From: Candidatus Woesearchaeota archaeon
Lineage (GTDB): Archaea > Nanobdellota > Nanobdellia > Woesearchaeales > UBA10216
Assembly (NCBI GenBank): GCA_016185705.1
Contig: JACPMZ010000009.1
Span: 17,656-81,655, forward strand
Direction of reading: 5' to 3'
Length of the DNA: 64,000 bases
A model generated the notes under the pieces. The model was not told where the DNA came from. It made no database searches and worked only from the letters and a program-made list of their open reading frames with translations. Shown here piece after piece: positions 35,329 to 52,693 of this stretch; the first letter of the stretch is position 1; each line of letters opens with the position of its first letter. The position numbers and the translations under genes were made by a program.

Positions 35329-35341
35329 ACGCCGGGACTGG
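35329..35341 (-). repeat. tRNA-Ser 3'-end remnant (att-like), copy a
   Basis: acgccgggactgg identical to 52564-52576; also forms a local hairpin AGACGCC...GGCGTCT. Confidence 0.5.
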
Positions 35342-35432
35342 CGTCTGGTTGCAAACCACACGCCGTCAGGCTTTGCCCGCCTCTTTGACATGCATTGCAG
35401 GAGGTGAGATATGGAGTGTTATCTAATAAAAC

Positions 35433-35705
35433 TCATATTTTGTATATGTTATCATGGTGGTCAAAGTCGTAGAAAATCACTTTGTCTTCTGGCTCAAGGT
35501 ATTTGAATGTCAGAACAAAAGGGCCTCGTATGTGAACTCGTTTTAAGTGCTGGAGTGGCTTGCGCAGATTTTTGTAATGGTTAACATCCTCACAGTTTAT
35601 TATTTCCTCAATCTTTCGCATGACGATTTCATAGGTTTGCCTGTCTTTTTTGCATAGCTTTTCAAGTATCCTCTGAAGTCCGGCTTCAACAGAGAAATTA
35701 CGCAT
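35433..35705 (-). CDS. RelE/YoeB-like toxin
   Basis: ILEKLCKKDRQTYEIVMRKIEEIINCEDVNHYKNLRKPLQHLKRVHIRGPFVLTFKYLEPEDKVIFYDFDHHDNIYK. Confidence 0.8.
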   Translation of the reverse strand: MRNFSVEAGLQRILEKLCKKDRQTYEIVMRKIEEIINCEDVNHYKNLRKPLQHLKRVHIRGPFVLTFKYLEPEDKVIFYDFDHHDNIYKI

Positions 35706-35943
35706 TCTCTACCAGCTTCCTCAATTCTGCAACGTTCTTAAATTTCCTGAATGTGCCCTTTCTCTCCAGGCGCTTTATCTTCTTCACATACTCGGGTTTC
35801 AGTTCAGGTTCCAGAAAGCTCTCTTCATAAACTTCAACCACGTAATTTATGGCCTCAGACTTGTCCTTTAGGCCGTATTTCGCCTTTACCATGTTAAGCA
35901 CCCTGTTGGATTGTTCTTCAATGTTTATTACAGCTTGTACCAT
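35698..35943 (-). CDS. Cognate antitoxin
   Basis: 81 aa, overlaps the toxin start. Confidence 0.72.
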   Translation of the reverse strand: MVQAVINIEEQSNRVLNMVKAKYGLKDKSEAINYVVEVYEESFLEPELKPEYVKKIKRLERKGTFRKFKNVAELRKLVENA

Positions 35944-36174
35944 GTTACATCACATATATGAAAGTATATGGGAAATATATAAATGTTTTGTTATTAACCG
36001 TGTCTCCCAAGGTGCGTTAATATTTGCAAAAGCAGCAACTGTTTTCATTGCATTTAAAAAATCTAAATCGGCTTTTTAAAGAGTTGCTTATGCTTGCCAA
36101 ATAAATTTCTCCGAGTTTTGTTTAATACCAATTGACGCATAATTTCTCTTTCTGCAGGCAACTTTAGGAATTGA

Positions 36175-36187
36175 ACGCCGGGACCGG
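36175..36187 (-). repeat. tRNA-Ser 3'-end remnant (att-like), copy b (degenerate)
   Basis: acgccgggaccgg; one mismatch to 52564-52576. Confidence 0.4.
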
Positions 36188-36189
36188 TT

Positions 36190-36546
36190 CTATTTTAATT
36201 CTCTTATCCGTATGCTGGTTTCCGAAATGGTTACGAAGGCTTTGCTGAGTTTTTTTCCTTGTTCTTCAATTAGACTCAGCGCATAGTCAATTCTTCGCCG
36301 GGGTGTATCTTTTTTGAGTCTCAGAAATATGATTCCTGCGCATTCCTTTCTCTGTCTGAAAATCAGTTCGCCAAAATCTTTGTCATTGGTTATTAGAATT
36401 CTGTTTTCTTTCAACGATTTTGCCAGCACTGAGCCGTCACTTTCACCTCTCAGCACTTCGCCTGCATACAAAGCATCATGCCCTTCTTTAATCAGCGCCG
36501 CAGCAAGTTTGTTACCTGAACTTTCATCAACCAGAAACTTTAGCAT
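36190..36546 (-). CDS. DUF5615-like PIN-like toxin
   Basis: MLKFLVDESSGNKLAAALIKEGHDALYAGEVLRGESDGSVLAKSLKENRILITNDKDFGELIF. Confidence 0.88.
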   Translation of the reverse strand: MLKFLVDESSGNKLAAALIKEGHDALYAGEVLRGESDGSVLAKSLKENRILITNDKDFGELIFRQRKECAGIIFLRLKKDTPRRRIDYALSLIEEQGKKLSKAFVTISETSIRIRELK

Positions 36547-36790
36547 GTTCCTTGACCGTTACAGGCATGACTGATTCACCGCTTACTATGTCTGCGCCGT
36601 ACATCAGAGCTGCAGTGATATCTTCCTTTGTGAGTTGAGGGTAGTCTTCAAGAATTTCGTCTACTTTCATGCCTTCAGCCACCTGGCGAATTATCGTATC
36701 TACAGGTATGCGTGTTCCCCGAATAACCGGCTTCCCAACCATTATTTTAGGATTCACTGTTATCCGCTGCAATAGTTTTGCGTCTTCCAT
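36527..36790 (-). CDS. DUF433 antitoxin
   Basis: ITVNPKIMVGKPVIRGTRIPVDTIIRQVAEGMKVDEILEDYPQLTKEDITAAL. Confidence 0.9.
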   Translation of the reverse strand: MEDAKLLQRITVNPKIMVGKPVIRGTRIPVDTIIRQVAEGMKVDEILEDYPQLTKEDITAALMYGADIVSGESVMPVTVKEHAKVSG

Positions 36791-36843
36791 GGTAAGTGAA
36801 CTTATTTGCTCAGTATTTATAATTATCGCTTTCAATAAATTAA

Positions 36844-36859
36844 ACGCCGGGACTGGGAC
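36844..36859 (-). repeat. tRNA-Ser 3'-end remnant (att-like), copy c
   Basis: acgccgggactgggac, 16/16 identical to 52564-52579. Confidence 0.75.
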
Positions 36860-36911
36860 ATACTCACTGCGGTTCGTAGCCCCAGTCCCGGCTCTGTTCG
36901 CTTCGCTCACT

Positions 36912-36925
36912 ACGCCGGGACTGGG
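36912..36925 (-). repeat. tRNA-Ser 3'-end remnant (att-like), copy d
   Basis: (t)acgccgggactggg, 15/15 identical to 52563-52577. Confidence 0.72.
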
Positions 36926-36969
36926 CAAAGTTTCTTGAAGGCAGCCCTGAAAAACGAAACATTTTTATA

Positions 36970-37007
36970 TTATCTTTATAGAGATAATGTTATCTCTGGT
37001 GAGATAA
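36970..37007. promoter_or_regulatory. Tandem palindromic operator overlapping the HTH-nucleotidyltransferase start
   Basis: TTATCTTTATAGAGATAA and TTATCTCTGGTGAGATAA back to back, ending at the ATG (37007). Confidence 0.65.
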
Positions 37008-37621
37008 TGGATTTAGCGATTAAAATAGTGGGGATTTACGATGGCGAACCAAAGGCAGAGCTCTCCATTAGAGAGATTTCTAAGAGGCTGAAAGCCACGT
37101 ACAGTTTCGTTTATGATGCAGTTGATACCATGGCTAACGAAGGCATCATAAGGGTTGCTGTTAAGGGCAGGGCCAAGATGTGCTCTTTGAATCTTAAAAA
37201 TGACAAAGCGCGTGCCTTGCTTGCTATCCGCTCAGTCAGCAGAAAGGATGGGTTCCTTGGAAAAAACAGGCTGGTTGGGGAGATGCTTGGCGAGTTCGTG
37301 AACAGGGTTACGGGCGAGAATGTTTATTCCATAGTCCTTTTTGGCTCTTATGCCAAGGGTTCGGCTTCTGAGGCCAGCGATGTTGATTTGCTGGTAATTG
37401 GAGCTTCGAAAGCTAAGCTGGATGGTAAGGTTGATGCTGAGGTCAACAGTTTGGAAGCGCGGTATGGAAAGGAAATCAACGCTGTCGTCATAGATAAGGC
37501 AATGTTTCTAAAGTCGCTGAGAAGCGAAGGGGTTACTGCTGTGAAGGAGGCGCTGGCTGACCACGTTATCTTGTCTGGTTTTGAGCGCTTTTGGGAACTT
37601 GTAAGGGAGGGGTTGGGATGA
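37007..37621 (+). CDS. wHTH + minimal nucleotidyltransferase (MNT) antitoxin
   Basis: ELSIREISKRLKATYSFVYDAVDTMANEGIIRV; VLFGSYAKGSASEASDVDLLVIG. Confidence 0.85.
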   Translation: MDLAIKIVGIYDGEPKAELSIREISKRLKATYSFVYDAVDTMANEGIIRVAVKGRAKMCSLNLKNDKARALLAIRSVSRKDGFLGKNRLVGEMLGEFVNRVTGENVYSIVLFGSYAKGSASEASDVDLLVIGASKAKLDGKVDAEVNSLEARYGKEINAVVIDKAMFLKSLRSEGVTAVKEALADHVILSGFERFWELVREGLG

Positions 37622-38157
37622 CTAGCAAGCAAGTGCTTAAGGATAAGCTTGACATGTATGAGCGGAAAAGCTTGTTCAGCAGGGACTCAGGCATCAAGCG
37701 TTTGGTGGGTAACTTCATGGCGAAGGCCAGGCATAATCTTGAGACTGCTGGTGTTGTTTTTGACTTGTCTGAGAGTAATGCTGCTAAGGAGGCTTTGAAG
37801 ATAAGCAGTTCTTACGCGGCTTATGATTGGGCGATTGTTGCTGCTTATTATGCCATGTACCACGCTGCTTTGGGCGCTTTGGCCGCTTTGGGTTTTAAGA
37901 GTGATGACCATGAAGCCACCAGAGTTGGGCTTTTATACTATTATGTCCTTGAAGGCTCGCTTGAAAGCAAATACGTCACAGCACTGGAAAAAGCCAGAAG
38001 GCTTGAAGAGGAGTACGTTCAGAAGCTGTACAAAGCTAAGAGAACTAGGCAGATAGCCCAATACTCTGTGGAAGGAGAGTTCAGTAAGGTGGAGGCTAAA
38101 AGCCTTATAGAAGACGCTGTGAGTTTTGTGAACCGCATAAGCGAATTGCTTAAGTAG
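37618..38157 (+). CDS. HEPN-domain toxin
   Basis: ARHNLETAGVVFDLS...AYDWAIVAAYYAMYHAALGALAALGFKSDDHEATRVGLLYYYV; 4-nt overlap with MNT. Confidence 0.82.
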   Translation: MTSKQVLKDKLDMYERKSLFSRDSGIKRLVGNFMAKARHNLETAGVVFDLSESNAAKEALKISSSYAAYDWAIVAAYYAMYHAALGALAALGFKSDDHEATRVGLLYYYVLEGSLESKYVTALEKARRLEEEYVQKLYKAKRTRQIAQYSVEGEFSKVEAKSLIEDAVSFVNRISELLK

Positions 38158-38365
38158 AGGGGGAGGGAGATTGATATGGTTGATGAGGAAATAGGAAGGA
38201 TTTTCGAATCCGACATAAGGTTGTGCAGCAGCTTGTCATAGACAGCTTCTGCTTGGTAAATTTGTTCCTTCAAATTCTGTTCCATAGCGGTTCACCCTCT
38301 TTTGGCGTGTTCGCCTAATATTTATTCCACCGCTAAAAGTGCCCCTGATTTAAACCGAGAAGGAA

Positions 38366-38375
38366 ACGCCGGGAC
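38366..38375 (-). repeat. tRNA-Ser 3'-end remnant (att-like), copy e (short)
   Basis: acgccgggac. Confidence 0.35.
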
Positions 38376-38487
38376 AGGACGGCGGACGAGCAGTGCGACG
38401 CCTTGCCCTTTTTGACCGCCATCAGAGACCAATGCCCTGCTTCTTTAATATACATTCTCGGAGAACGGATATATAAAGCTTGTCGTC

Positions 38488-39042
38488 TCAGTTTTGCTTT
38501 CTCCGTTTCTTTGGCTTTTCTTTTCTGGCTTCCACTTTGTCTAAGAATTCTCTTGGATTTTGCAGTATTTTGTCTATTCTCCAGTCGCCTTGAATTTCAA
38601 GAAATTGCTTAACATCATCGACGAACTGGATGTATTGCTCTTTCGTTTCCACATTGTCATTTAAGCCGAAAGCTTCAAGGAATTGCCCATAATTCTTGAT
38701 ACCGCCAAATTGAGAGAAAAACTTATAGCATTTGTAACAAGATTTGAATTTATCATTGTTTGTGTGGAATGTGCTTTCGCAAAAAATGCATGTTTTCTCG
38801 AACTTGTAATCTCTTGTCGCTTTTTCAGGTTCTTTGATCTTTGCTGGTTGCTTTGTCCAGCCTTCGGCAACAAGTTTATTGACAAGGACAGTATCCATTC
38901 CGTGCTGCTTGTCATAGTTGTGACTTTCTCTAAGTCCGGGATAGTATTTTCTGTGTTTGTATAAGTAGTTGCAGGGTAAGCATCTACCTTGATGATATAT
39001 ATCTCTATCGCAGCGTTTGCAACTATAGGTTTTCCCTTCCAT
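38488..39042 (-). CDS. Zinc-finger protein of unknown function
   Basis: CKRCDRDIYHQGRCLPC and CIFCESTFHTNNDKFKSCYKC. Confidence 0.65.
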   Translation of the reverse strand: MEGKTYSCKRCDRDIYHQGRCLPCNYLYKHRKYYPGLRESHNYDKQHGMDTVLVNKLVAEGWTKQPAKIKEPEKATRDYKFEKTCIFCESTFHTNNDKFKSCYKCYKFFSQFGGIKNYGQFLEAFGLNDNVETKEQYIQFVDDVKQFLEIQGDWRIDKILQNPREFLDKVEARKEKPKKRRKQN

Positions 39043-39148
39043 TAAAAACACACATTCCAGGAGAGCGGGATATAAAAAGCTTGTCAAGAAGTCCGCCAAT
39101 TTTTTCAATGCGGAAGCTATTTAAAAAGGAGCTTTTTATGCCTCCAAT

Positions 39149-39646
39149 ATGAAGAAAATCTTTAGCTTGGCTTTGATGGTGATATTATTAGCGTCGTTAG
39201 CAACAGCATTTGCGCCTTCTGAACCAAATCCGGATGTCAGTTGCCAAGAGAACTTAGCTCAGTGCCAAGCAGACATTCAGAAGCTGCTTGCAATTAATCA
39301 AAACTTAACACACCAGTTGGAGAATATAACTTCACAACGTGATTATTATCGCACACTTTACGAGCAAACATTGCTCGATAATTTTAGTGTGCAAAAGCTC
39401 GAATCTTTTGAAAGCAAAATAATCAACAATAATTACCAGTATAACACAACTGTAACTGAGATTAAGCAGACGATTAATAACATAAAAATTCGTCAGAATA
39501 TTATTATTTTTGCATTAGTATTTGAAATTGGTCTTTTCAGCTTTACCTTCTTCAAGCAAAGGCTGTTGTTGAAGAAAACAGAGCAGCTTCTTTTGAAGGT
39601 CAATGCAGTCTCAATCAAGACAGAGAAAAAGAATGAGGATGAGTGA
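39149..39646 (+). CDS. Signal-peptide coiled-coil protein with C-terminal TM
   Basis: LALMVILLASLATAFA; central coiled coil; FALVFEIGLFSFTFF. Confidence 0.6.
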   Translation: MKKIFSLALMVILLASLATAFAPSEPNPDVSCQENLAQCQADIQKLLAINQNLTHQLENITSQRDYYRTLYEQTLLDNFSVQKLESFESKIINNNYQYNTTVTEIKQTINNIKIRQNIIIFALVFEIGLFSFTFFKQRLLLKKTEQLLLKVNAVSIKTEKKNEDE

Positions 39647-40604
39647 GCATTTTTCTCGCTCCGTGAAGAGAGGTATTTACATAGCTGGAAGTTTAATGGT
39701 GTTATTTTTAGCAGCCTATCTACTAATTCCTGCAACAGTTGATTTTTTCTGGGGTGAACAAATTATAGAACGTCATGTTGCAGATGTCTTAGGAGCTGCA
39801 GAAACTGCTGATGAAGCTGCTTTTAAAATTCTGTCCTGGGAAGACTTGAATTTTGAAGATCCTTATTCTACATGGGAAGGAAAGTGGTACAACAAGTACA
39901 GCATCTATCACATGAACGGTTCTTATAAGTGGTTCATTCGCTCAAACCAGTTATCATGGCTAATTACAAGCAAACTCGGCAATTGCGGAGAGCGTGCCTA
40001 TTATTTTGTTCAAATGATGGAAGAAGCAGGCTATCCCGCAAGGGTAGTATGCGTAGTAGAAGATCACTGCTGGGCAGAATACCAATCGGGAGGATTCTGG
40101 ATTGCAGTTGATCCAAGTCAGGCAGAATATGTCACACCCGAAAACTACGTTCTAGGGCGCAACTGGTCTCGCATAGAGGCACGCTATCTTAATGGAAGTA
40201 TGGAAGACGTCACATACCGTTACCTTAATACTGCCGAGTTGTTCATTACATCAGAAAAAATGGGCGGTCAAGTGAACATATACTCTACCGTTCTTTCAAG
40301 CAGTGGCTCACCACGTTATGCGAGCCCTTCGCTAGTAACTACTCGAAAACTGGAAGAACCTTTCACACTAAGATTAGGGTATGTTCCTACCTATCAATTG
40401 GTTTATAAAAGAGATTATGGGCCGATTAGCTTCCATAAGAGATTTTCTGATATAAAGTTGCCTACAAATATTAGTCTGGTTCAAGGTGAACTTATAAACT
40501 TGAAGAATCTTCGCTTTAACACTCTTTGGATAGTCTGGTTTTCTCTTTTTTCGATTTTTCTTTTTGCAGTTATCAGAAGGATCATGGCGGAAAAAAGGAA
40601 GTAG
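39633..40604 (+). CDS. Membrane-anchored transglutaminase-like protein
   Basis: LGNCGERAYYFVQMMEEAGYPARVVCVVEDHCWAEYQSGGFWIAVDPS: C-H-D triad context; N- and C-terminal TMs. Confidence 0.75.
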   Translation: MRMSEHFSRSVKRGIYIAGSLMVLFLAAYLLIPATVDFFWGEQIIERHVADVLGAAETADEAAFKILSWEDLNFEDPYSTWEGKWYNKYSIYHMNGSYKWFIRSNQLSWLITSKLGNCGERAYYFVQMMEEAGYPARVVCVVEDHCWAEYQSGGFWIAVDPSQAEYVTPENYVLGRNWSRIEARYLNGSMEDVTYRYLNTAELFITSEKMGGQVNIYSTVLSSSGSPRYASPSLVTTRKLEEPFTLRLGYVPTYQLVYKRDYGPISFHKRFSDIKLPTNISLVQGELINLKNLRFNTLWIVWFSLFSIFLFAVIRRIMAEKRK

Positions 40605-40613
40605 CATAAAGGA

Positions 40614-41576
40614 TCACAGTAGGTTCCCAAGCTCATCAAGGCTATGTAAAATACGAGTGTTGTAAAATTTGTCAACATTTCGTTGTATTAGAATTTTTGC
40701 CCATTCACGCTCGGTTACCACCACGTCACAATAGGGAACTGCGATATTTAGAGCACCAAAATCATATAAATCGTTGGGTTCTATTGCTCTGCCTTTATTC
40801 AAGTTTCTTGTACTATTTAGAACATAGTAAACGTACGCTGTTGGAATAGACCTTAGAAAAGCTCTAGACGTCTCTTTGCTTCCAAAAACCTGTTTTGTCA
40901 AAGCTTTTGCATTCAGATTAAAACTAAGCACCTCTCTGAGAAATTTATCACGTATAACATTTAACAAAAATCTTACTTCACTGATTTTCTTTCGCATTTC
41001 TTTATCAGGATGTCCATACTCCTCAGAGCGTAGTTTTTCGAGATTTGCGGCAAGGTCTGAATCACGTTCTATCATACGCTTTACGAAGTCGGTGGAATCT
41101 GTTTGCCCTAGTGCATTTGCCATCATTTCAGAATTTTTCATCGCTGCAAGGCATTTGTCCAATATCTCCTTTGGGACTGGCTTATCAGCCTTAATCGACG
41201 TAAAGTGCTCCTTTGCACCGAAGCAGTGGCCTATTCCCCGTCCGAATACGGCATTTGAAAGCTCTACCGGTGTCTTCCCAACCGTTTTAATTATAGCATT
41301 TCTGATTTCGAGGTCGATTATGTGTGTCCAAGGTATTATAGAGTTGAATTTGGAGATATCTAAAATGAATTTGAAGAGTTCTGTTCGGGACCTGGTATCT
41401 CTTCTCTTATGTGTTTCAAAAAGATGACAGAAGGATAAAGGATAGGTGTGTTTTCCAGAATTTGCCGTTTCAATTACCTTTTGGCAAACGTCTTTATGAT
41501 TGGGGTAATACGGCTTCTGTCCTTTGTACGTTTTTAGAAGGTTTACGTACGCCCATTGATCTAAATAAATTCTCAT
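40614..41576 (-). CDS. PIN-like domain protein (solitary)
   Basis: MRIYLDQWAYVNL...NDLYDFGALNIAVPYCDVVVTEREWAKIL. Confidence 0.5.
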   Translation of the reverse strand: MRIYLDQWAYVNLLKTYKGQKPYYPNHKDVCQKVIETANSGKHTYPLSFCHLFETHKRRDTRSRTELFKFILDISKFNSIIPWTHIIDLEIRNAIIKTVGKTPVELSNAVFGRGIGHCFGAKEHFTSIKADKPVPKEILDKCLAAMKNSEMMANALGQTDSTDFVKRMIERDSDLAANLEKLRSEEYGHPDKEMRKKISEVRFLLNVIRDKFLREVLSFNLNAKALTKQVFGSKETSRAFLRSIPTAYVYYVLNSTRNLNKGRAIEPNDLYDFGALNIAVPYCDVVVTEREWAKILIQRNVDKFYNTRILHSLDELGNLL

Positions 41577-41684
41577 AAGTATCAGGATATCTAGTCCCTT
41601 TATGAATTTTAATGTTTAGCTGTTTCAAAACGTGTATTCTGTTATCCGAGATTTGCCTTTCTTCTTGTCAAAATATCGACCAAT

Positions 41685-42032
41685 TTGATGAAATTAAATA
41701 CCATTTCGTGCCTGTATAATCTTGACTATCTTAGGCAAATACCTTCAAATGAAGTTGACTTGGTTGTTACCGATCCTCCTTATAACGTCAGCCAGAAGCA
41801 GGACATGAAATTTGATGGTCGGATTGTTACGAAGAATTTCGGTGACTGGGATTTTGGCTTTGACCCTCTGCCCGTTTTGAAGGAGTTAAAGCGTGTTCTG
41901 AAACCTAATGGCCAGATTTATGTGTTCTGTGGGACTGAGCAGATTCCGCTTTACATGAATGCTTTCAGAAATGGAAAAGGACTACCTGCTGACAGCAACG
42001 CAAGGCAAAGGCATCCTCATAATGGACAATGA
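41685..42032 (+). pseudogene. Truncated DNA methyltransferase N-terminus
   Basis: NEVDLVVTDPPYNVSQ...VLKELKRVLKPNGQIYVFCGTEQIPLYMNAF, then homology ends abruptly. Confidence 0.75.
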
Positions 42033-42648
42033 CCATCAGGAGCTGGAAGTGGTCGCCTCTCCAAAAGAGCACGAGCTCATAACAACCAATCCCAATGAAA
42101 TCGTCAACAAGCATGCCAAGCCGGAAGAGCTTGCAGACATTAATGCAGCAGTTGACCTTGAAAAGAAACTCTACTACGCCAGAGACCTTGACATAGAACA
42201 GAAAAACTATCTTGGAAATCATGGCTACAAGGCAGGCTTCTTCGTTCCCATAGGCAAGCCCAGGCAGGAAGAGTGCTGGGTTAAAGCTAATGAAGTGGAA
42301 TCGCTGGAGCATACGTTTTTGGTGGAGAATATTAAATCAGAACTTCTCAAGCACACAAAAGAAGTAGTTGTTAATGTAGCGGTTGGGCCTGATATCATAT
42401 TTAAAGATAAACGTAACCGCAGTATAGCTTTAGAAATAGAAACTGGAAAAAGCTTAAGAGAAAAGAAAAGATTGCAAGAAAAATTCCATGAAGCAAAATT
42501 AAAATATCAAAATCTGGTGCTTATTGTTCTCACTGATGTTCATCAAAAACAAAAGTACGAAAAAATTGTCGAAGACATCCCTCTGCTGCTTCGGAAAGAC
42601 ATCCCGCACTTAATAGAAACCCTATTCAAGAAAAAGAAGCAAGCCTAA
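41959..42648 (+). CDS. C-terminal fragment of a VirB4/TraC-like conjugation ATPase joined to a nuclease-like domain
   Basis: DYLLTATQGKGILIMDNDHQELEVVASPKEHELITTNP; later GPDIIFKDKRNRSIALEIETGKSL (PD-(D/E)xK-like). Confidence 0.5.
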   Translation: MLSEMEKDYLLTATQGKGILIMDNDHQELEVVASPKEHELITTNPNEIVNKHAKPEELADINAAVDLEKKLYYARDLDIEQKNYLGNHGYKAGFFVPIGKPRQEECWVKANEVESLEHTFLVENIKSELLKHTKEVVVNVAVGPDIIFKDKRNRSIALEIETGKSLREKKRLQEKFHEAKLKYQNLVLIVLTDVHQKQKYEKIVEDIPLLLRKDIPHLIETLFKKKKQA

Positions 42649-42766
42649 TTCTTGGAGGTATTTAGACTGTAGATTTGGGCTTTCGGGGCCTGAAAAGGCA
42701 GATTAGGCTGTCCAGTTGGGGTTCAAAACATTTATAAGTCTAAGAGGAAACTTCCTCTAGAAAACC

Positions 42767-45112: not shown

Positions 45113-45116
45113 AAAA

Positions 45117-46562
45117 ATGAGCATTTCAACAACGATAAAGTCCATACAGGATATTATGCGCAAAGACGCCGGAGTTGATGGTGACGCCCAAAGAATTTCG
45201 CAACTTGTTTGGATGATTTTTCTAAAAGTATTTGATGCGAAGGAAGAAGAATGGGAGCTTGAAGACGACACTTATAAATCACCCATTCCTGAAAGATTAA
45301 GGTGGAGAAACTGGGCGGCAAATGATGAAGGAATAACCGGAGAAGAACTTCTTGATTTTATAAACAACAAGCTATTCCCCCAATTGAAAAATCTTGAAGT
45401 CTCTGCAGATGATAAAAAGGCGGTGCTTGTCAGAGATTTATTCTCTGATGCCTACAACTACATGAAGCACGGCGCATTAATTAGGCAGGTTATCAATAAA
45501 CTCAACGAAATTGACTTTCATACAACCAAAGACAGGCATCTGTTCAATGACATCTATGAGCAGATACTTCGTGATTTGCAAAGTGCAGGAAATGCCGGTG
45601 AATATTATACTCCAAGAGCAGTAACTCAATTTATAGTCGATATGATCAATCCAAAACTTGGTGAGGTTGTACTCGATCCTGCATGTGGTACTGGTGGATT
45701 TTTAATCTGTACACTTGAAAACTTAAAAAAAGTAGTAAAAAGTGTTGATCAGCGAGCAAAATTGCAGGATTGCTTAAGAGGAATAGAAAAAAAGCCACTA
45801 CCACATTTACTAGCAACGACAAATTTGATTCTTCACGACATTGAAGTCCCAAATATTAAACATGATAACTCATTATCTAAACCTATCAGAGATATTGGAC
45901 CTTCAGATCAGGTAGATATTGTTGTAACAAATCCGCCCTTTGGAGGTGCTGAAGAAGAAGGCATAGAAAATAATTTTCCTTCTTTATTTAGGACCCGAGA
46001 AACCGCAGACTTGTTCCTTGTCTTAATTATGAGACTTTTAAGGGATGAAGGTAGATGTGGGATTGTGCTTCCAAGTAGCCCAATTGATGAAGGAAAGGTT
46101 AAAGGTAGGATTTTTGCAAAGCTTTTTGAGGAATTTAATCTCCATACTATTGTTAGACTTCCGCAGGGTGTATTTTCGCCATATACAGACATAAGTACTA
46201 ACCTACTATTCTTTGAAAAAGGTAAACAAACTAAAGATATCTGGTATTTTTTCCATCCAATTAGAGAGGAATTAACACATTTGAATAATCCTAGATATTC
46301 AAAAACCAAACCGATTAGAATTGAAGAATTCGAATTGGAAAAAGAATGGTGGAATAATCGTAACGATAAAAAATTTTCAAATTATTGCATAAAAATTTCA
46401 GCTGATGAAATAATTAAAAGAAGATATGACTTGTGGATTGAAAACCCAAATAACGTTGACGAAACCGAAAATATGACTAGCAAAGAAATTATTGAACGAC
46501 TAGAAAAATCAATAAATAAAAATGTGCAACTTCTTGAGAAAATAAAGAGGGAACTCAAATGA
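45117..46562 (+). CDS. hsdM: Type I restriction-modification methyltransferase subunit M
   Basis: GEYYTPRAVTQFIVDMINPKLGEVVLDPACGTGGFL; VVTNPPFGG. Confidence 0.95.
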   Translation: MSISTTIKSIQDIMRKDAGVDGDAQRISQLVWMIFLKVFDAKEEEWELEDDTYKSPIPERLRWRNWAANDEGITGEELLDFINNKLFPQLKNLEVSADDKKAVLVRDLFSDAYNYMKHGALIRQVINKLNEIDFHTTKDRHLFNDIYEQILRDLQSAGNAGEYYTPRAVTQFIVDMINPKLGEVVLDPACGTGGFLICTLENLKKVVKSVDQRAKLQDCLRGIEKKPLPHLLATTNLILHDIEVPNIKHDNSLSKPIRDIGPSDQVDIVVTNPPFGGAEEEGIENNFPSLFRTRETADLFLVLIMRLLRDEGRCGIVLPSSPIDEGKVKGRIFAKLFEEFNLHTIVRLPQGVFSPYTDISTNLLFFEKGKQTKDIWYFFHPIREELTHLNNPRYSKTKPIRIEEFELEKEWWNNRNDKKFSNYCIKISADEIIKRRYDLWIENPNNVDETENMTSKEIIERLEKSINKNVQLLEKIKRELK

Positions 46563-47119
46563 AATACATGCCGCTTTCTATGTTTATCAAACAGCAAAAA
46601 GAATTCATTGAAATAGATTATTCGGAAGAATATCTGAGAGTTAGAGTTAAACTACATCAGCAAGGTATGGTTGTTAGGGATAGAGTAAAGGGAATCGAGA
46701 TTAGGACTAAAAAACAACAGGTATGCAAAAAAAACCAATTGCTAGTCGCCGAAATTGATGCAAAAGTTGGCGGATACGGGTTAGTTCCCCAGTCACTGCA
46801 AGGTGCAATTGTTAGTAGTCATTACTACTTGTTTAACATAGATGAAACTCAACTATCGGTTGAATATTTAAAATACATTTTGCAAACAAAGCAATTCTTT
46901 TCTCAGATAAGAGCTCAGGGTAGCACAAATTATGCATCAATAAGACCTAAAGATGTACTAGAAATTAAAATACCTTATACTTCTATCAATGAACAAAAAA
47001 AAATTGTGTCATTAATGCAGCTCTGCGATCAATTAGAATCTCAAATTAAAGAAACTCAAAAAAATTATGATGCATTAAGGAAAGCTGTTTTGAAGGAAGC
47101 TTTTGAGGTAGAAGCATGA
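46559..47119 (+). CDS. hsdS: Half-length type I specificity subunit (single TRD)
   Basis: 186 aa; QGSTNYASIRPKDVLEIKIPYTSINEQKKIVSLMQLCDQLESQIKETQKN; 4-nt overlap with hsdM. Confidence 0.82.
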   Translation: MKYMPLSMFIKQQKEFIEIDYSEEYLRVRVKLHQQGMVVRDRVKGIEIRTKKQQVCKKNQLLVAEIDAKVGGYGLVPQSLQGAIVSSHYYLFNIDETQLSVEYLKYILQTKQFFSQIRAQGSTNYASIRPKDVLEIKIPYTSINEQKKIVSLMQLCDQLESQIKETQKNYDALRKAVLKEAFEVEA

Positions 47120-47781
47120 CCTACAAATTCTCTCCTTTCTCACTCTCACTTCTCAAAGAATGCCCTCGCTGCTTTTGGCTTCACTTCAATAAGAATGTTA
47201 AGCGCCCTTCTACTCCTTTCCCTTCGCTTCCGGCAGGAATGGACCGGATTTTGAAGGCCCATTTTGATGCGTTTCGTGATAAGGGAGAGCTGCCTCCGGA
47301 GATGGAGAAGTTGAATGGCCGGGTTAAGCTGTTTGACAATGTTGAGCTGCTGGAGCAATGGCGGAAAACATTAAAGGGCATTCAGTGGACAGATGAAAAA
47401 GGCAACCTATTCAGAGGTGCTGTGGACAATATTCTTCAGAAGGGAAAAAAGCTTATTGTTCTTGATTATAAAACCCGTGGCTATCCTGTTAAAGAAGATA
47501 CTGCTGAGCATTACAAGGACCAGCTAGACATTTACAACTTCTTGCTTAGAAAGAACGGATATGAAACTGAGGATTATGGCTATCTGATGTTTTATTACCC
47601 GAAGGAAGTTGAGGCTGACGGAGATGTTGCCTTTCATACAGAGTTGGTTAAGATGGAAATTTCTGTAAAGAATGCAGAGCGCATCTTTAAAGAAGCTGTT
47701 GACGTGGTGGATGGAAAGATGCCGAAAAGTGCTGAAGGATGCGGATATTGTAAATGGGCCTTGGCTAATAACAACGTTTAA
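47116..47781 (+). CDS. Cas4/AddB-like PD-(D/E)XK nuclease with cysteine cluster
   Basis: LLKECPRCFWLHF...FRGAVDNILQKGKKLIVLDYKTRG...CGYCKWA; 4-nt overlap with hsdS. Confidence 0.8.
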   Translation: MTYKFSPFSLSLLKECPRCFWLHFNKNVKRPSTPFPSLPAGMDRILKAHFDAFRDKGELPPEMEKLNGRVKLFDNVELLEQWRKTLKGIQWTDEKGNLFRGAVDNILQKGKKLIVLDYKTRGYPVKEDTAEHYKDQLDIYNFLLRKNGYETEDYGYLMFYYPKEVEADGDVAFHTELVKMEISVKNAERIFKEAVDVVDGKMPKSAEGCGYCKWALANNNV

Positions 47782-47814
47782 GTAGTGTTGATTTTACAGA
47801 TGAACGGGGGAAAA

Positions 47815-48084
47815 ATGGTAGAAAAAAACAAGCTGATTGTAGAATATTTTGACAAAATATACGATGTCCCATTAGAAAAAATTGTGCCAAATCCAAACAA
47901 TCCCCGAGAAAAATTCTTGGAGTCCGAAGAAGATGAATTAATTGAATCAATTCTTTCAAAGGGGATTCTGAATCCTATTGTGGTCTATAAACGTAATGGC
48001 GATGGCAAGTATGGGAAGAATGTAAACCACTTTCGTGATGTTAACCAGTTTCGTGATAACAGAGGCCAAAGAGGTAGAAGATAA
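47815..48084 (+). CDS. Truncated ParB/Spo0J N-terminal domain
   Basis: YDVPLEKIVPNPNNPREKFLESEEDELIESILSKGILNPIVVYKRNGDGKY, then ends. Confidence 0.6.
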   Translation: MVEKNKLIVEYFDKIYDVPLEKIVPNPNNPREKFLESEEDELIESILSKGILNPIVVYKRNGDGKYGKNVNHFRDVNQFRDNRGQRGRR

Positions 48085-48116
48085 ATTTATTAAGAGGCTA
48101 ATGACACCCCCTTTTA

Positions 48117-48746
48117 GTGAAAAGGAGTAACAGTAAAGCGGAAAAGAGCACACTTGTAGCGTTTTTGGATACTGCCGAGAGCTTTTTGAAACACTACCCC
48201 TTACTTTCAAAAGGCTTCTTCTTCCTTATTTTATTCATACTGTCCTCAGGATTATTGTATATGTTTATCCAAGACAGAGCATATAATGAAGGCTATAAAC
48301 AGGGTGTGGCAGAAGAACGAGAGAATACATTATATTCTCGTTATCCTATAACCGTTAATGCTGAGACTAATTACGGGCCATTTGCAAAAGGACAATATTT
48401 CCAAGTAGCTCCAGAATACCAGAACCCTACTGACAAGGATGTACGCATTAAGGGATTTACAATCACAGTTCCATCTGAAGATTGGCTTGTTCAAAAAGGG
48501 GGTGCTCCCAATCAAGCGACACAGCAAGTTCAGATACCTATTCCCGTAACTGAGAATGCAACACAGACCAAACAAGTTGTTGTTATACAATCCCGATCGG
48601 ATGTATTCCCAGCTCATGCAGTAGAGCAAATACCCGCTAATCCGCTGGTAGCTGCAGCTGAAGGAACGTGGCCAATCAAGTTTTGTATAGAATACGCAGA
48701 TGGGACACAAACCTGCCCGAGAACAAGTGTAATTGAAGTAAGGTAA
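48117..48746 (+). CDS. Single-TM protein of unknown function
   Basis: GTG start; FFFLILFILSSGLLYMFIQ then a soluble domain. Confidence 0.55.
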   Translation: MKRSNSKAEKSTLVAFLDTAESFLKHYPLLSKGFFFLILFILSSGLLYMFIQDRAYNEGYKQGVAEERENTLYSRYPITVNAETNYGPFAKGQYFQVAPEYQNPTDKDVRIKGFTITVPSEDWLVQKGGAPNQATQQVQIPIPVTENATQTKQVVVIQSRSDVFPAHAVEQIPANPLVAAAEGTWPIKFCIEYADGTQTCPRTSVIEVR

Positions 48747-48760
48747 GTTATTCCTTTTAA

Positions 48761-48934
48761 TTATAGGCGTGTCTTATTGCGTTCATCTCTGAGAATTTTC
48801 TCCATTATGGCTTGTTTGATGTACTCCGAAACCGACATGCAATCATTTGTCTGCTTCTTGAGCTCTGCCCAGAGCTTTTTCGGGCAGAAGAAGCTTCTGC
48901 GTTCTGACCTGGCCATTTCAAAGTCGTCATTCAT
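48761..48934 (-). CDS. Small RHH-like protein (57 aa, not in ORF track)
   Basis: MNDDFEMARSERRSFFCPKKLWAELKKQTNDCMSVSEYIKQAIMEKILRDERNKTRL*. Confidence 0.55.
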   Translation of the reverse strand: MNDDFEMARSERRSFFCPKKLWAELKKQTNDCMSVSEYIKQAIMEKILRDERNKTRL

Positions 48935-49127
48935 TTTTGCTCAGTTTTGAAGGCATGAACAAAGCACACCGAACATAGTCTGATTTCTTGCGGAAGCCTA
49001 CTTCTTGCATTTTTATTTTTAACATGTTTTCCTGTTCCGGTGTTATGCGGATAATAAGCGTTTTTTTTTTCCCATATCTACCCTGATTTCTGCATTTTAT
49101 TAATCTGGCTTGGTTAATCTTCGGCAC
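48927..49127 (-). CDS. Small RHH-like protein
   Basis: KKKTLIIRITPEQENMLKIKMQEVGFRKKSDYVRCALF; overlaps its neighbours. Confidence 0.55.
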   Translation of the reverse strand: MPKINQARLIKCRNQGRYGKKKTLIIRITPEQENMLKIKMQEVGFRKKSDYVRCALFMPSKLSKNE

Positions 49128-49239
49128 CTTTCTCTGGCTCTTTTTGATGTAACATTTTTGTGCTCATTCTTGTTCCCTGAATTAATCCAGTTACTATGCT
49201 TACCCATTTCGGCGTTTCAGCTTCTTTTTCATCTTCCAT
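49114..49239 (-). CDS. Small hypothetical protein (41 aa)
   Basis: MEDEKEAETPKWVSIVTGLIQGTRMSTKMLHQKEPEKGAED*; overlaps both neighbouring ORFs. Confidence 0.4.
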   Translation of the reverse strand: MEDEKEAETPKWVSIVTGLIQGTRMSTKMLHQKEPEKGAED

Positions 49240-49417
49240 TTTGCTTTACTGCTTCATAGATTTTTGATAGAAACTCCTCGATTTGTGAATTGTTACCAAA
49301 CGATATTATTCGTAGGTAGCTCGAGATGGTCTTACACCCCCTTTCTGAGGCGTTACTCTGAAGGCGTTTGAATTGCTCCTCGTCTACAAGGAATTTGACC
49401 ATGTGATTGCTAATCAT
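49229..49417 (-). CDS. Small RHH-like protein
   Basis: MVKFLVDEEQFKRLQSNASERGCKTISSYLRIISFG. Confidence 0.5.
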   Translation of the reverse strand: MISNHMVKFLVDEEQFKRLQSNASERGCKTISSYLRIISFGNNSQIEEFLSKIYEAVKQNGR

Positions 49418-49499
49418 GAAAAGAACAAGACAGCACTATAAAATAAAGGTATCTCGGAAAAGGTATATCAAAAAGCTACCAAATTGGCAGTTATATGAA

Positions 49500-51203
49500 T
49501 CATACGGCAAGAATACGATTAATTTGGTTAATTATCAACTTTCTTCTTTCTGTTACTAGTTCCTCGTAATTTTCAAGTTCCCATAAGTTTTCATCTTCAG
49601 GGATTAAGTGTTTTTTAAGGTAAAGTGCCTTATTTGAAACAGAGCTCGATATCCATTCTTGCAATGATTTGCCAGACTTTTCCCATCGATTTGTTCCTGA
49701 GTCTAGAAGTTGGTAATTTTCAACTCTATTCATTTGAGCGTAGTCATAACCTTTTCTTTCTAAAAGTGAGGATGGCTGAACGTGGTCTATATCTTGCAAT
49801 CTTGTTACTTCTTGCCTGTCGTATAATATAAAGAATAAGAAATTTTGATCCAATCTATCAAGGTTTGATTCATCAAAAACGACGTAGAAATATACGGGGT
49901 GGTTTCTATACATCTCAAAAATTTGTTTAATTGGAAATTCTTTTCCTTTAAATTCCTTTATTATTAACAAAATTTTTCTTATTCCTGTTTTATATGGAAT
50001 CCAACCGGCACCTCTACTTTTAAAAACTCCGCTTAGAAGAGATATGTATATCCAGCTATACATGTTTTTAAAATCGGCATTGCCTGTATCGTAATTATCA
50101 AAGAAATGCTCTAGTTCTTCATCCTTTAGATTCTTATGGAAGAGATGATATGCAATGAAATATAGGGGTATGAAAGACCTGTTTTCTTTTTTGTAGTATT
50201 CGTATAGACCGGCATTTTTTAAGAACTTTTTAAGCGCATTTAAAGCTGCAGAAATTTTTGCGCTGTTAGTCACCGCAAATGTGGCATCCTCTTGTTGCAA
50301 GTTAGCCATTTCCTTTGAATGGTTGTCACGAAGAATGAATATGAGCTTAATGAGCGAGTCCTGATTTATTCCGATATCGGAATATTCTTTAAGAATATCA
50401 TCCAAGAATTGCTCCATTTTCCATTCAAAACCTTTCAAGATCGATGCCACTAAGTCAAAAGCAGATAATTTTGTTCCTCCATCGTTCAGTCGCTTAAATA
50501 ATTCAACCACTCTCTGCCTGTTTGCAATAGAATCCAAGGCTCGATTGACATTCACCCTTGCCATGCCAACATGTTTTCCAGCAAACACATTATTATAAAA
50601 AGTGCTGATATTTCTATTTATGTGTGCTTTTTGTTGATCATTTTCAATATTTAACTTTCTGATAAATTCTTCGGCAACCTGATATCCATCGTTTGTTTCT
50701 TTGAGGCGCATGAATAACGAAGGTACTGGAATCCACTTAGTTTCTTGGATAGCTTTCTCATCTCTATCTTGGTTAGTCTTTGGTAATTTTGATTGATCAT
50801 TTCCAAACTCAAAATCATACTCCATATTATTGTAATCACTAAATAAATCAAAGAACAACATCTTTCTATTTATGCTACCGGTTAGCCCAATATAAAAAGA
50901 TTGTAGCCTTTGTTGACCATCTATCACAAGGCTATGGTTTTTTTCTAATTTTTCAAGACTAATTGAACTTACCGGTTCACCGTCTTTTGTAAAATATCTG
51001 AATGCAAATAATGGAGGGAAGCTCACATCCTCTTGGATAGTCATTATGCCACCAAAAGAATTAGCTTTTAATAAAGTGTCAAAAAGCAACTCCATTTTCC
51101 CTTCATCCCATATGAGCCTTCTTTGAATAACGGGCAATACTAACGCATTTTCAGAAATATTATCTACAGTATCAGCAACGGATTTTGACTCCCAATTAGC
51201 CAT
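49500..51203 (-). CDS. DUF262/GmrSD-like protein
   Basis: VLPVIQRRLIWDEGKMELLFDTLL; LVIDGQQRLQSFYIGL; C-terminal DIDHVQPSSLLERKGYDYAQMNRVENYQLLD (HNH-like). Confidence 0.82.
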   Translation of the reverse strand: MANWESKSVADTVDNISENALVLPVIQRRLIWDEGKMELLFDTLLKANSFGGIMTIQEDVSFPPLFAFRYFTKDGEPVSSISLEKLEKNHSLVIDGQQRLQSFYIGLTGSINRKMLFFDLFSDYNNMEYDFEFGNDQSKLPKTNQDRDEKAIQETKWIPVPSLFMRLKETNDGYQVAEEFIRKLNIENDQQKAHINRNISTFYNNVFAGKHVGMARVNVNRALDSIANRQRVVELFKRLNDGGTKLSAFDLVASILKGFEWKMEQFLDDILKEYSDIGINQDSLIKLIFILRDNHSKEMANLQQEDATFAVTNSAKISAALNALKKFLKNAGLYEYYKKENRSFIPLYFIAYHLFHKNLKDEELEHFFDNYDTGNADFKNMYSWIYISLLSGVFKSRGAGWIPYKTGIRKILLIIKEFKGKEFPIKQIFEMYRNHPVYFYVVFDESNLDRLDQNFLFFILYDRQEVTRLQDIDHVQPSSLLERKGYDYAQMNRVENYQLLDSGTNRWEKSGKSLQEWISSSVSNKALYLKKHLIPEDENLWELENYEELVTERRKLIINQINRILAV

Positions 51204-51262
51204 TTTGAGACTTTTACTGGGTATGTGAATAAAAAGCTTTCTCAAATTTTGCAAGGTCGGTT

Positions 51263-52483
51263 TTACTTTAGGTTTAATTCATTAATTTTCGTCGCTATGA
51301 CGCTTAGCACTTCAGGATCTTTTAGCAGGGTATTCATGATGTTGTCCGATTGCTGGCGCATTGCTTTTTCCTTTTGTAGCTTTTCTTGGAGTTCCATTGC
51401 TGTTTGTATGTCAAGGACTCCTGCGCATTTGCTGCAGTATTTGGCGTCTGGGCTGTTAAGGGTGTCGCAGCGTTGGCAGGATTTGGGCTTGAATTGGGCT
51501 TCCCTGCCCTTTTCTGGCGACTGCAAGCCATTAAGTGCAAGGATTGATTTATCCAGACTTTTCCCGCTCATGTGCACGTAGGTTGCTGGCATTTTGCTGC
51601 CTTGTATCCAGCCAAAATATTGGTTCATTTGGAATTCTGTAAGATGGTTGGCAAGAAAAGTGGCTCGGGAATGCCTGAAAATGTGTGGGTTGAAGCGTTT
51701 GGCTACGCCAGCTTTTTTGAAAAGCCTGCCAAGCAGCACTCGGATAGCGCTATATCTGAGAATTTCGTAACGTGAGCACTTGCCAACGTTTACCCAGAGT
51801 GGTGCATTGTTATTGTTTCTGTCCGGATGGTTTTGCAGCCAGACCGAAAGGTAAGATGTTGATGTTACGATGCGTATTGTTCTTGGGCCAGTCTTGCCAG
51901 TAACATGCATCACCGCTCCGTAAGTGTCAAATTTGAGGTTTTTGATTTGCATGGTTGCAATTTCCCCTATGCGAGCACCGCTTTCGTAGAGTGTAGCGAT
52001 AAATGCTTTGTCTCTGACTTGGTCTGCCGCATTGATGAGCTTTTGCACGTCTGCTTCAGTGAGCATCTCACCATTGGATGGCAGGGTGATTTCTGTTCGT
52101 TTAATAGTGGTGGGAATCCACTTGACCTCTGCCGGATGGCCGTCAGGCGTGTCTTTGAGCCACCTGTAAAACCGTTTGAACATTATCTTGTATGTTGCTT
52201 TTGTCCATGCGCTGTAATGCTCGTTCTCTTGGATAACACGCACTGCTCTCCCAATATCCTCTTTGGTAGCTTTGTCAAAATCAACGCCAAGAATCTCAGC
52301 CCATCTGCTCAGAATGCTCAAATAGCGCACTGTTCGGGGCAAGCCTATGCCCTCCAGGCTGCAGAAGTCCCGGAATTTCAGTATTGCCTGCTTGTTTTGC
52401 AGGCTTATCTTTGCTCTCTCAACACAGGCCACTGCCTGCTCTAGCTTTTGCGGGTAGTTATGGATATCCAGGCCGTTTTTCAT
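51263..52483 (-). CDS. Tyrosine recombinase/integrase with C-terminal zinc ribbon
   Basis: YESGARIGEIATMQ (R), NPHIFRHSRATFLANHL (HxxR), MPATYVHMSG (Y); CQRCDTLNSPDAKYCSKC; GGAGG upstream of the 52483 start. Confidence 0.9.
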   Translation of the reverse strand: MKNGLDIHNYPQKLEQAVACVERAKISLQNKQAILKFRDFCSLEGIGLPRTVRYLSILSRWAEILGVDFDKATKEDIGRAVRVIQENEHYSAWTKATYKIMFKRFYRWLKDTPDGHPAEVKWIPTTIKRTEITLPSNGEMLTEADVQKLINAADQVRDKAFIATLYESGARIGEIATMQIKNLKFDTYGAVMHVTGKTGPRTIRIVTSTSYLSVWLQNHPDRNNNNAPLWVNVGKCSRYEILRYSAIRVLLGRLFKKAGVAKRFNPHIFRHSRATFLANHLTEFQMNQYFGWIQGSKMPATYVHMSGKSLDKSILALNGLQSPEKGREAQFKPKSCQRCDTLNSPDAKYCSKCAGVLDIQTAMELQEKLQKEKAMRQQSDNIMNTLLKDPEVLSVIATKINELNLK

Positions 52484-52564
52484 GTTCAAATCCTCCAAAG
52501 AAGCAGTTCTTAATAAGCCGAATGGCCCAAACCGGGCCATATAGGCGTTTACTCTATGAGCGTA

Positions 52565-52693
52565 CGCCGGGACTGGGACTTTCAAATTTACTGGCGAAAC
52601 CAGTGAATCTTTTTGAACCCAGAAGGCCGTGAGGCCATCGGTTTACCAGCAGTGGTTCAAGACCGACGCACTACCAGATTATGCGATCCCGGC
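52565..52693 (-). tRNA. tRNA-Ser(UGA) with two candidate introns (anticodon loop and T-loop)
   Basis: Acceptor GCCGGGA/TCCCGGC; anticodon stem TCGGT/ACCGA with loop CTTGAA|ccactgctggta|A; variable arm GGCCTCACGGCC; T-stem CTGGG/CCCAG interrupted by a ~29-nt insert with internal ACTGG/CCAGT hairpin. Confidence 0.82.

Follow-up and report, generated by a model that had tools for sequence, protein, structure and literature searches.

Toxin-antitoxin and defence cassettes stacked behind tRNA-Ser genes of a Woesearchaeales archaeon: probable serial integration at tRNA 3′ ends with small cassettes moved in trans

We analysed a 64,000-nucleotide stretch (the window) of contig JACPMZ010000009.1 from a Candidatus Woesearchaeota archaeon, in which toxin-antitoxin (TA) and defence modules are stacked behind a tRNA-Ser(UGA) gene and separated by copies of its 3′ end. 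Read outward from the tRNA, this array (locus A) consists of an integrase-bearing type I restriction-modification (RM) element (E5), a HEPN/MNT cassette (E4), a short hairpin unit (E3), a DUF433/DUF5615 cassette (E2) and a RelE/DUF2683 cassette (E1), followed by the chromosome. The best explanation, which we consider very probable, is serial site-specific integration at tRNA-Ser 3′ ends, with the small cassettes moved in trans. In the proposed process, the family of the integrase encoded at 51263-52486 would join the core of a circular element to the tRNA-Ser 3′ end; every insertion would restore the tRNA, lie innermost and displace older insertions outward, with a hybrid core left behind at the boundary. 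Most insertions would be small cassettes of 0.5-1.8 kb that carry a single toxin-antitoxin or defence operon but lack an integrase, and that are excised and inserted in trans by the integrase of a resident or incoming element. Movement in trans seems most likely because several cassettes share attachment arms with integrase-bearing elements. Addictive toxin-antitoxin cargo would then slow cassette loss and favour persistence.

The core at the intact tRNA 3′ end, ACGCCGGGACTGGGAC, lies at 52564-52579 on the forward strand. All the further copies listed in a preliminary description of this DNA were found at their positions and in a single orientation: 16/16 bases at 36844, 13/13 at 35329, 12/13 at 36175, 10 bases at 38366, and 15 bases with an extra upstream t at 36912. 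With up to 3 mismatches allowed, the window contains 9 matches where 1.56 were expected, a number reached in 0/100 shuffles. Across the whole assembly (at most 1 mismatch) there are 15 matches, and 13 of them fall into three clusters that each end at a tRNA-Ser gene: locus A in the window, locus B at C8:154018-156450 and locus C at C8:72415-73012. The remaining two, on other contigs and on the opposite strand, are probably chance matches at the level of the reversed-pattern control, which gave 3 matches genome-wide. At locus C the repeat is ACGCCGGGATTGG, the 3′ end of the local tRNA-Ser(CGA). This genome-wide count, which the preliminary description had put forward as a way to refute its view, places the motif at tRNA-Ser loci and not scattered through the genome. 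The same description had envisaged one tRNA-Ser attachment site. That proved too narrow; three tRNA-Ser genes are used as attachment sites in this genome, and we rejected the single-site view. A tRNA-Tyr gene is apparently used as well.

The core copies carry two kinds of information. Bases 1-10 track the local tRNA, reading ACGCCGGGAC or, at tRNA-Ser(CGA), ACGCCGGGAT; base 11 and bases 14 onward vary by element; and bases 12-13 are GG in all copies, forming a dyad with CC at bases 4-5 around a common centre. The outermost core, at the end of the RelE/DUF2683 cassette (35329-35344, forward strand), makes with one flanking base the perfect dyad GACGCC-GGGACT-GGCGTC, and the copy at 36175-36187 (forward strand) reads ACGCCGGGACCGG. 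Judged by these patterns, the copies look like hybrid attR sites, with the first ten bases derived from the tRNA and the remainder specific to the element. The shorter copies are better read as such hybrids than as decayed repeats, because the pattern fits recombination inside GGGACT, where we infer the exact crossover position.

At the far end of E5, the putative hybrid core at 38366-38375 runs into an attachment arm of ~120 bp (38364-38484, reverse strand). Inward from the core, this arm is identical at 119/119 positions to that of a MazE/ParE element at C8:154571, after which the similarity stops. Both places carry the core variant CCTGTCCCGGCG, which is the tRNA-Ser(CGA) core of genus g10, the source of the G012, G015 and G016 cassettes described below. 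Within g10, homologous arms end six cargos (a HEPN/MNT cassette, a 740-bp cassette, an AbiE cassette, the proximal cassette of contig C34, an integrase-fragment element on C12 and a 225-aa gene), all terminating in GCCGTCC-TGTCCCGGCG. A single homologous arm ends at least seven different cargos, E5 among them, and among 353 genomes of the order it was clear only in the present one (G000), G012 and G015. The shared arm (window 38440-38484 and its homologues) also includes AAGCTTTATATATCC, a TATA-like sequence that may be a promoter at the end of the cassette.

Comparison with relatives supports repeat-bounded gain, since the presence of cassettes varies among them within limits set by the repeat. 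Exact cores number 8 here, against 1-4 in 14 of the 18 other family genomes and none in the other 4. In G001, of the same genus, single-core tRNA-Ser genes lie at the positions of locus B (beside Kae1) and locus C (beside a CBS gene). Three single-core tRNA-Ser genes were found in G002, one of them at position C with both flanks recognisable, and in G005 a single-core tRNA-Ser stands beside SRP54, the position of locus A. From the left neighbouring tRNA to the outer core, our locus C is ~166 bp longer than that of G002, and the junction is therefore not base-exact. Synteny through the gene left of array A (DUF5667) was uninformative, the family being scattered.

Other relatives hold different cassettes. 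An array on G012 contig C11 comprises HEPN/MNT, AbiEi/AbiEii (1357 bp) and 740-bp cassettes, and G012 contig C34, syntenic with our locus B, carries an AbiE cassette (1428 bp) and a winged helix-turn-helix pair (873 bp). Immediately behind tRNA-Ser(CGA) of G016 there is again an AbiE cassette (1509 bp), and behind that of G015 a 225-aa gene (900 bp). The three AbiE copies share 80-85% identity from the core inward, and their flanks are unrelated except for the arms. Because homology begins at the core and, arms apart, none is found outside it, one and the same integrase-less AbiE cassette is present at no fewer than three tRNA-Ser-type sites in two genomes. Similar arrangements occur elsewhere: G009 has tRNA-Arg, two RelE/DUF2683 pairs (1268 bp), a bare core and an integrase, and L216 has tRNA-Ser, a GNAT cassette (626 bp), a core, an integrase element and a further core. 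The GNAT cassette has perfect inverted repeats of 15 bp, which in a circle would lie on either side of the core. The preliminary description had proposed that repeated integrations built a stack of att-delimited modules and that sister genomes could refute this; the empty sites in G001, G002 and G005, the other cassettes in G012 and G016 and the repeat-bounded variation all speak for it. Its further idea of mobilisation in trans gains support from the AbiE cassette at three sites and the homologous arms on at least seven cargos.

The tyrosine integrase (51263-52486, reverse strand; 407 aa; Pfam PF00589) has a C-terminal zinc ribbon and lies 78 bp from the tRNA core. Residues R172, H268, R271, H272 and Y303 are invariant in five homologues. 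A tRNA-type integrase is found in this genome in E5 only, the other match being a 275-aa Xer-like frame. Many homologues were retrieved from Woesearchaeota and other archaea; most of the close ones read lie directly beside a tRNA, and for several there is a distal copy of the tRNA 3′ end 5-27 kb away. Viral contigs yielded one full-length relative at 35% and otherwise weak ones.

The alternative that survives best, although we regard it as unlikely, is that the cassettes are decayed remnants of complete integrase elements, deleted down to their addictive toxin-antitoxin genes and never mobile themselves. Tandem islands and their remnants are well known, integrase-bearing relatives are common at tRNAs, and on G012 contig C12 an integrase fragment (162 aa) sits beside a TA-like gene and an arm. 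However, the compact cassettes retain both ends and their operon, so that decay would need to have reached identical limits repeatedly, and neither the 1.36-1.5 kb AbiE cassette with homology from the core at three sites in two genomes nor the ending of many small cargos in one homologous arm favours such decay. Far less probable is that one site-specific insertion was followed by homologous recombination between shared arms and tRNA sequences, which spread the cassettes among tRNA-Ser loci. The 119-bp arm and an 82-bp hairpin unit, each identical at two loci of one genome, and an identical 111-bp duplication at tRNA-Tyr would suit it, but the AbiE copies at C11 and C41 differ at their distal ends and have no long common flank, and cores of only 10-16 bp fall short of what ordinary homologous recombination needs. 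The view that a GC-rich motif recurs by chance or through base composition has nothing of weight in its favour beyond the two stray matches and can be dismissed on the shuffles and on the clustering at three tRNA-Ser genes.

Several points weigh against serial integration with cassettes moved in trans. E1, E2 and E4 do not have the distal arm of E5 and may have used other, lost integrases; E1 and E2 share none of the arms described above, and a common integrase for them is therefore only assumed. Shared arms of 60-120 bp could be used by homologous recombination too, and integrase action alone does not account for the hairpin unit. In three cassettes no TA gene is recognisable, and the cargo of another consists of a GNAT gene only. 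The G012 C11 array has no visible tRNA on the fetched stretch, and the genomes compared are incomplete metagenome-assembled genomes. Boundaries, hybrid cores, homologous arms, variable presence and one cassette at several sites are what the compared genomes display; circles, excision, action in trans and the reason for selection or persistence are what we infer.

Module identities in the window were obtained by profile hidden Markov model searches (Pfam, NCBIfam), which confirmed the RelBE, DUF433/DUF5615, MNT/HEPN and RM-integrase modules of the preliminary description. E1 (35345-36174, reverse strand; 846 bp core to core) encodes a YafQ/RelE-like toxin (35433-35705; NCBIfam TIGR00053, score below the cut-off) and a DUF2683 antitoxin (35698-35943; Pfam DUF2683), and homologous pairs are those of the G009 cassette. 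E2 (36188-36843, reverse strand; 669 bp) carries a PIN-like DUF5615 gene (36190-36546; PF18480) and a DUF433 open reading frame (ORF; 36527-36928; PF04255). E4 (36926-38365, forward strand; 1454 bp) encodes an MntA-like nucleotidyltransferase (to 37621) and a HEPN toxin-like protein (to 38157), both recognised by Pfam/NCBIfam; its homologue in G012 is a core-bearing HEPN/MNT cassette (42/38% identity), and its tRNA-proximal 59 bp match the G015 cassette at 81%. E5 (38376-52563; 14.2 kb), the sole integrase-bearing module, contains HsdR (42767-45112), HsdM (45099-46562), HsdS (46559-47119), a PD-(D/E)XK protein (47116-47781) and GmrSD_N (49500-51254). An N6/N4 methylase ORF in E5 (41685-42032, 115 aa) covers the first 64 of 221 profile positions and is apparently truncated.

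Outward from its tRNA, locus B consists of a hairpin unit, a MazE/ParE cassette with a 176-aa ORF (1811 bp) and a 114-aa ORF (553 bp), and locus C of a hairpin unit and a Fic/Doc cassette (530 bp). At C2:61838-61973 and ~1 kb downstream (L060), tRNA-Tyr is followed by a VapBC-like cassette, a ribbon-helix-helix/UPF0175 and PIN-like pair of 998 bp between two identical 111-bp stretches. Beyond it lies a second TA-like pair on the opposite strand.

The copies at 36844 and 36912 proved to be the ends of an ORF-less hairpin unit absent from the preliminary description. This unit, E3 (36844-36925; 68 bp core to core), is laid out as core, 22-nt loop, inverted core (36881-36894), 19-nt spacer and core. 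Its 82 bp are identical at C8:156382, directly adjoining another tRNA-Ser, and the same anatomy is found at two further tRNA-Ser genes of this genome; close relatives of this 67-68 bp unit lie behind tRNA-Asp (this genome), tRNA-Ser genes (G006) and tRNA-Glu (G001). The places recorded are window 36844-36925, G000 C8:156382, C8:72945 and C2:59546, and L061-L063 and L066; at the tRNA-Glu of G001 two units stand in tandem. In these units a 12-bp stem, acceptor plus T-stem-like, matches the adjacent tRNA, and the loop in common is GCTACGAA..GAGTnTGT. Over seven sequences, 94% of the cells pair and 10 cells change on both sides (0/500 shuffles). The covariation score, 0.42, exceeds those of shuffles (0.15) and of slid controls (at most 0.17), a difference to be read with the caveats that related sequences can beat shuffles without structure and that part of it is due to the 3′ arm copying each tRNA; yet the inverted arm must have changed too. 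We did not accept that the unit is an ordinary integrase cassette, because the inverted inner arm, too, tracks the tRNA sequence.

The tRNA-Ser(UGA) itself (52565-52693, reverse strand) was identified by a search for T-loop introns. It has such an intron of ~33 nt, because of which ARAGORN misses the gene, and the 3′ exon serves as the attachment core (attB/attL). T-loop introns were seen in many attachment-site tRNAs, the core coinciding with the 3′ exon (window 52565-52693; L012, L060, L063-L065, L118, L264-L266); a literature search on T-loop introns with integration returned nothing on point. A tRNA-Ser of G001 carries the hairpin loop, inverted, within its T-loop intron (L063 ~4095-4160; 20/23 bases, 0/2000 shuffles), a resemblance that hints at a connection between intron, hairpin and insertion. 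Upstream of a tRNA-Ser in G021 (L036) there are hairpin copies of its 5′ end, with spacers resembling GTTCGCTTCGCTCAC. Related archaea have short-range copies of tRNA 3′ ends with weaker hairpins, 66 bp behind tRNA-Gly and tRNA-Glu (L111 and L155) and, for tRNA-Ile, at +79 and +207 (L188).

These observations lead us to a wider proposal, held tentatively and at somewhat less than even chances: Woesearchaeales may possess a cassette-capture system of separate evolutionary origin from integrons, in which tyrosine integrases that target tRNAs move dedicated small TA and defence cassettes with a common arm in trans and the cassettes are kept in arrays behind tRNA genes, with hairpin units and perhaps some T-loop introns as products of the same recombination. 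Serial integration would offer archaea with tiny genomes a concrete route to gain or exchange single toxin-antitoxin and abortive-infection operons and would explain why such operons cluster behind tRNA genes; the simple junction signature makes cassette exchange testable from metagenomic reads. A literature search on tRNA, integrase and TA in DPANN archaea returned nothing on point.

Among known systems, we assign the arrays to tRNA-targeted, trans-mobilised integrative elements. In E5 the integrase lies beside the restored tRNA, and the tRNA 3′ end recurs as a direct repeat at the far end of the element; no conjugation system was identified in it in a scan of the larger ORFs. The small cassettes have att-like sites at both ends and no recombinase of their own, as do cis-mobilizable elements (CIMEs) and satellites. 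The closest kinds are CIME/accretion islands and the ssrA islands of Dehalococcoides. In CIMEs and in accretion of integrative and conjugative or integrative and mobilizable elements, integrase-less DNA with att-like flanks lies beside an integrase-bearing element, and CIMEs are usually large derivatives of integrative and conjugative elements, whereas here single-operon cassettes recur at several sites. Tycheposons are likewise reported to be tRNA-bordered, cargo-carrying elements with a tyrosine recombinase, but they are described as spanning 4-200 kb and belonging to bacteria, while the present cassettes are mostly below 2 kb and have no recombinase. The ssrA islands form a tandem row behind an RNA gene, with a copy of the gene's 3′ end bounding each island and insertion at the T-loop; many are devoid of an integration module and are proposed to be carried along with neighbours by accretion (PMC3146451). 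Tandem modules behind an RNA gene and recombinase-less modules are common to both; the ssrA islands differ in their serine recombinase, tmRNA target, bacterial hosts and reductive dehalogenase genes, whereas the present arrays have a tyrosine integrase, use more than one tRNA gene in a genome and hold 0.5-1.8 kb, mostly TA or defence cassettes in archaea. Likeness to integrons lies in the arrayed small cassettes, which have no integrase, mostly hold one operon and are joined at short recombination sites; TA cassettes are common in large integrons. IntI and folded attC are the defining features of archaeal integrons (PMC9668308). As regards folding, what was seen here is that the cores are short dyads and that one cassette has 15-bp inverted repeats. 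The present integrase scores 27.9 bits with the IntI model TIGR02249 (cut-off 265), its best model being archaeal XerA (96.8 bits, cut-off 220); there is no attI, the receiving site being a tRNA 3′ end, also at loci with no integrase nearby, and there are several arrays per genome. We therefore rejected membership among integrons, and the integron-like island of the preliminary description stands as an analogy only. If mobilisation in trans is true, an ordinary tRNA integrase would here have given rise to integron-like capture, with neither IntI nor attC involved.

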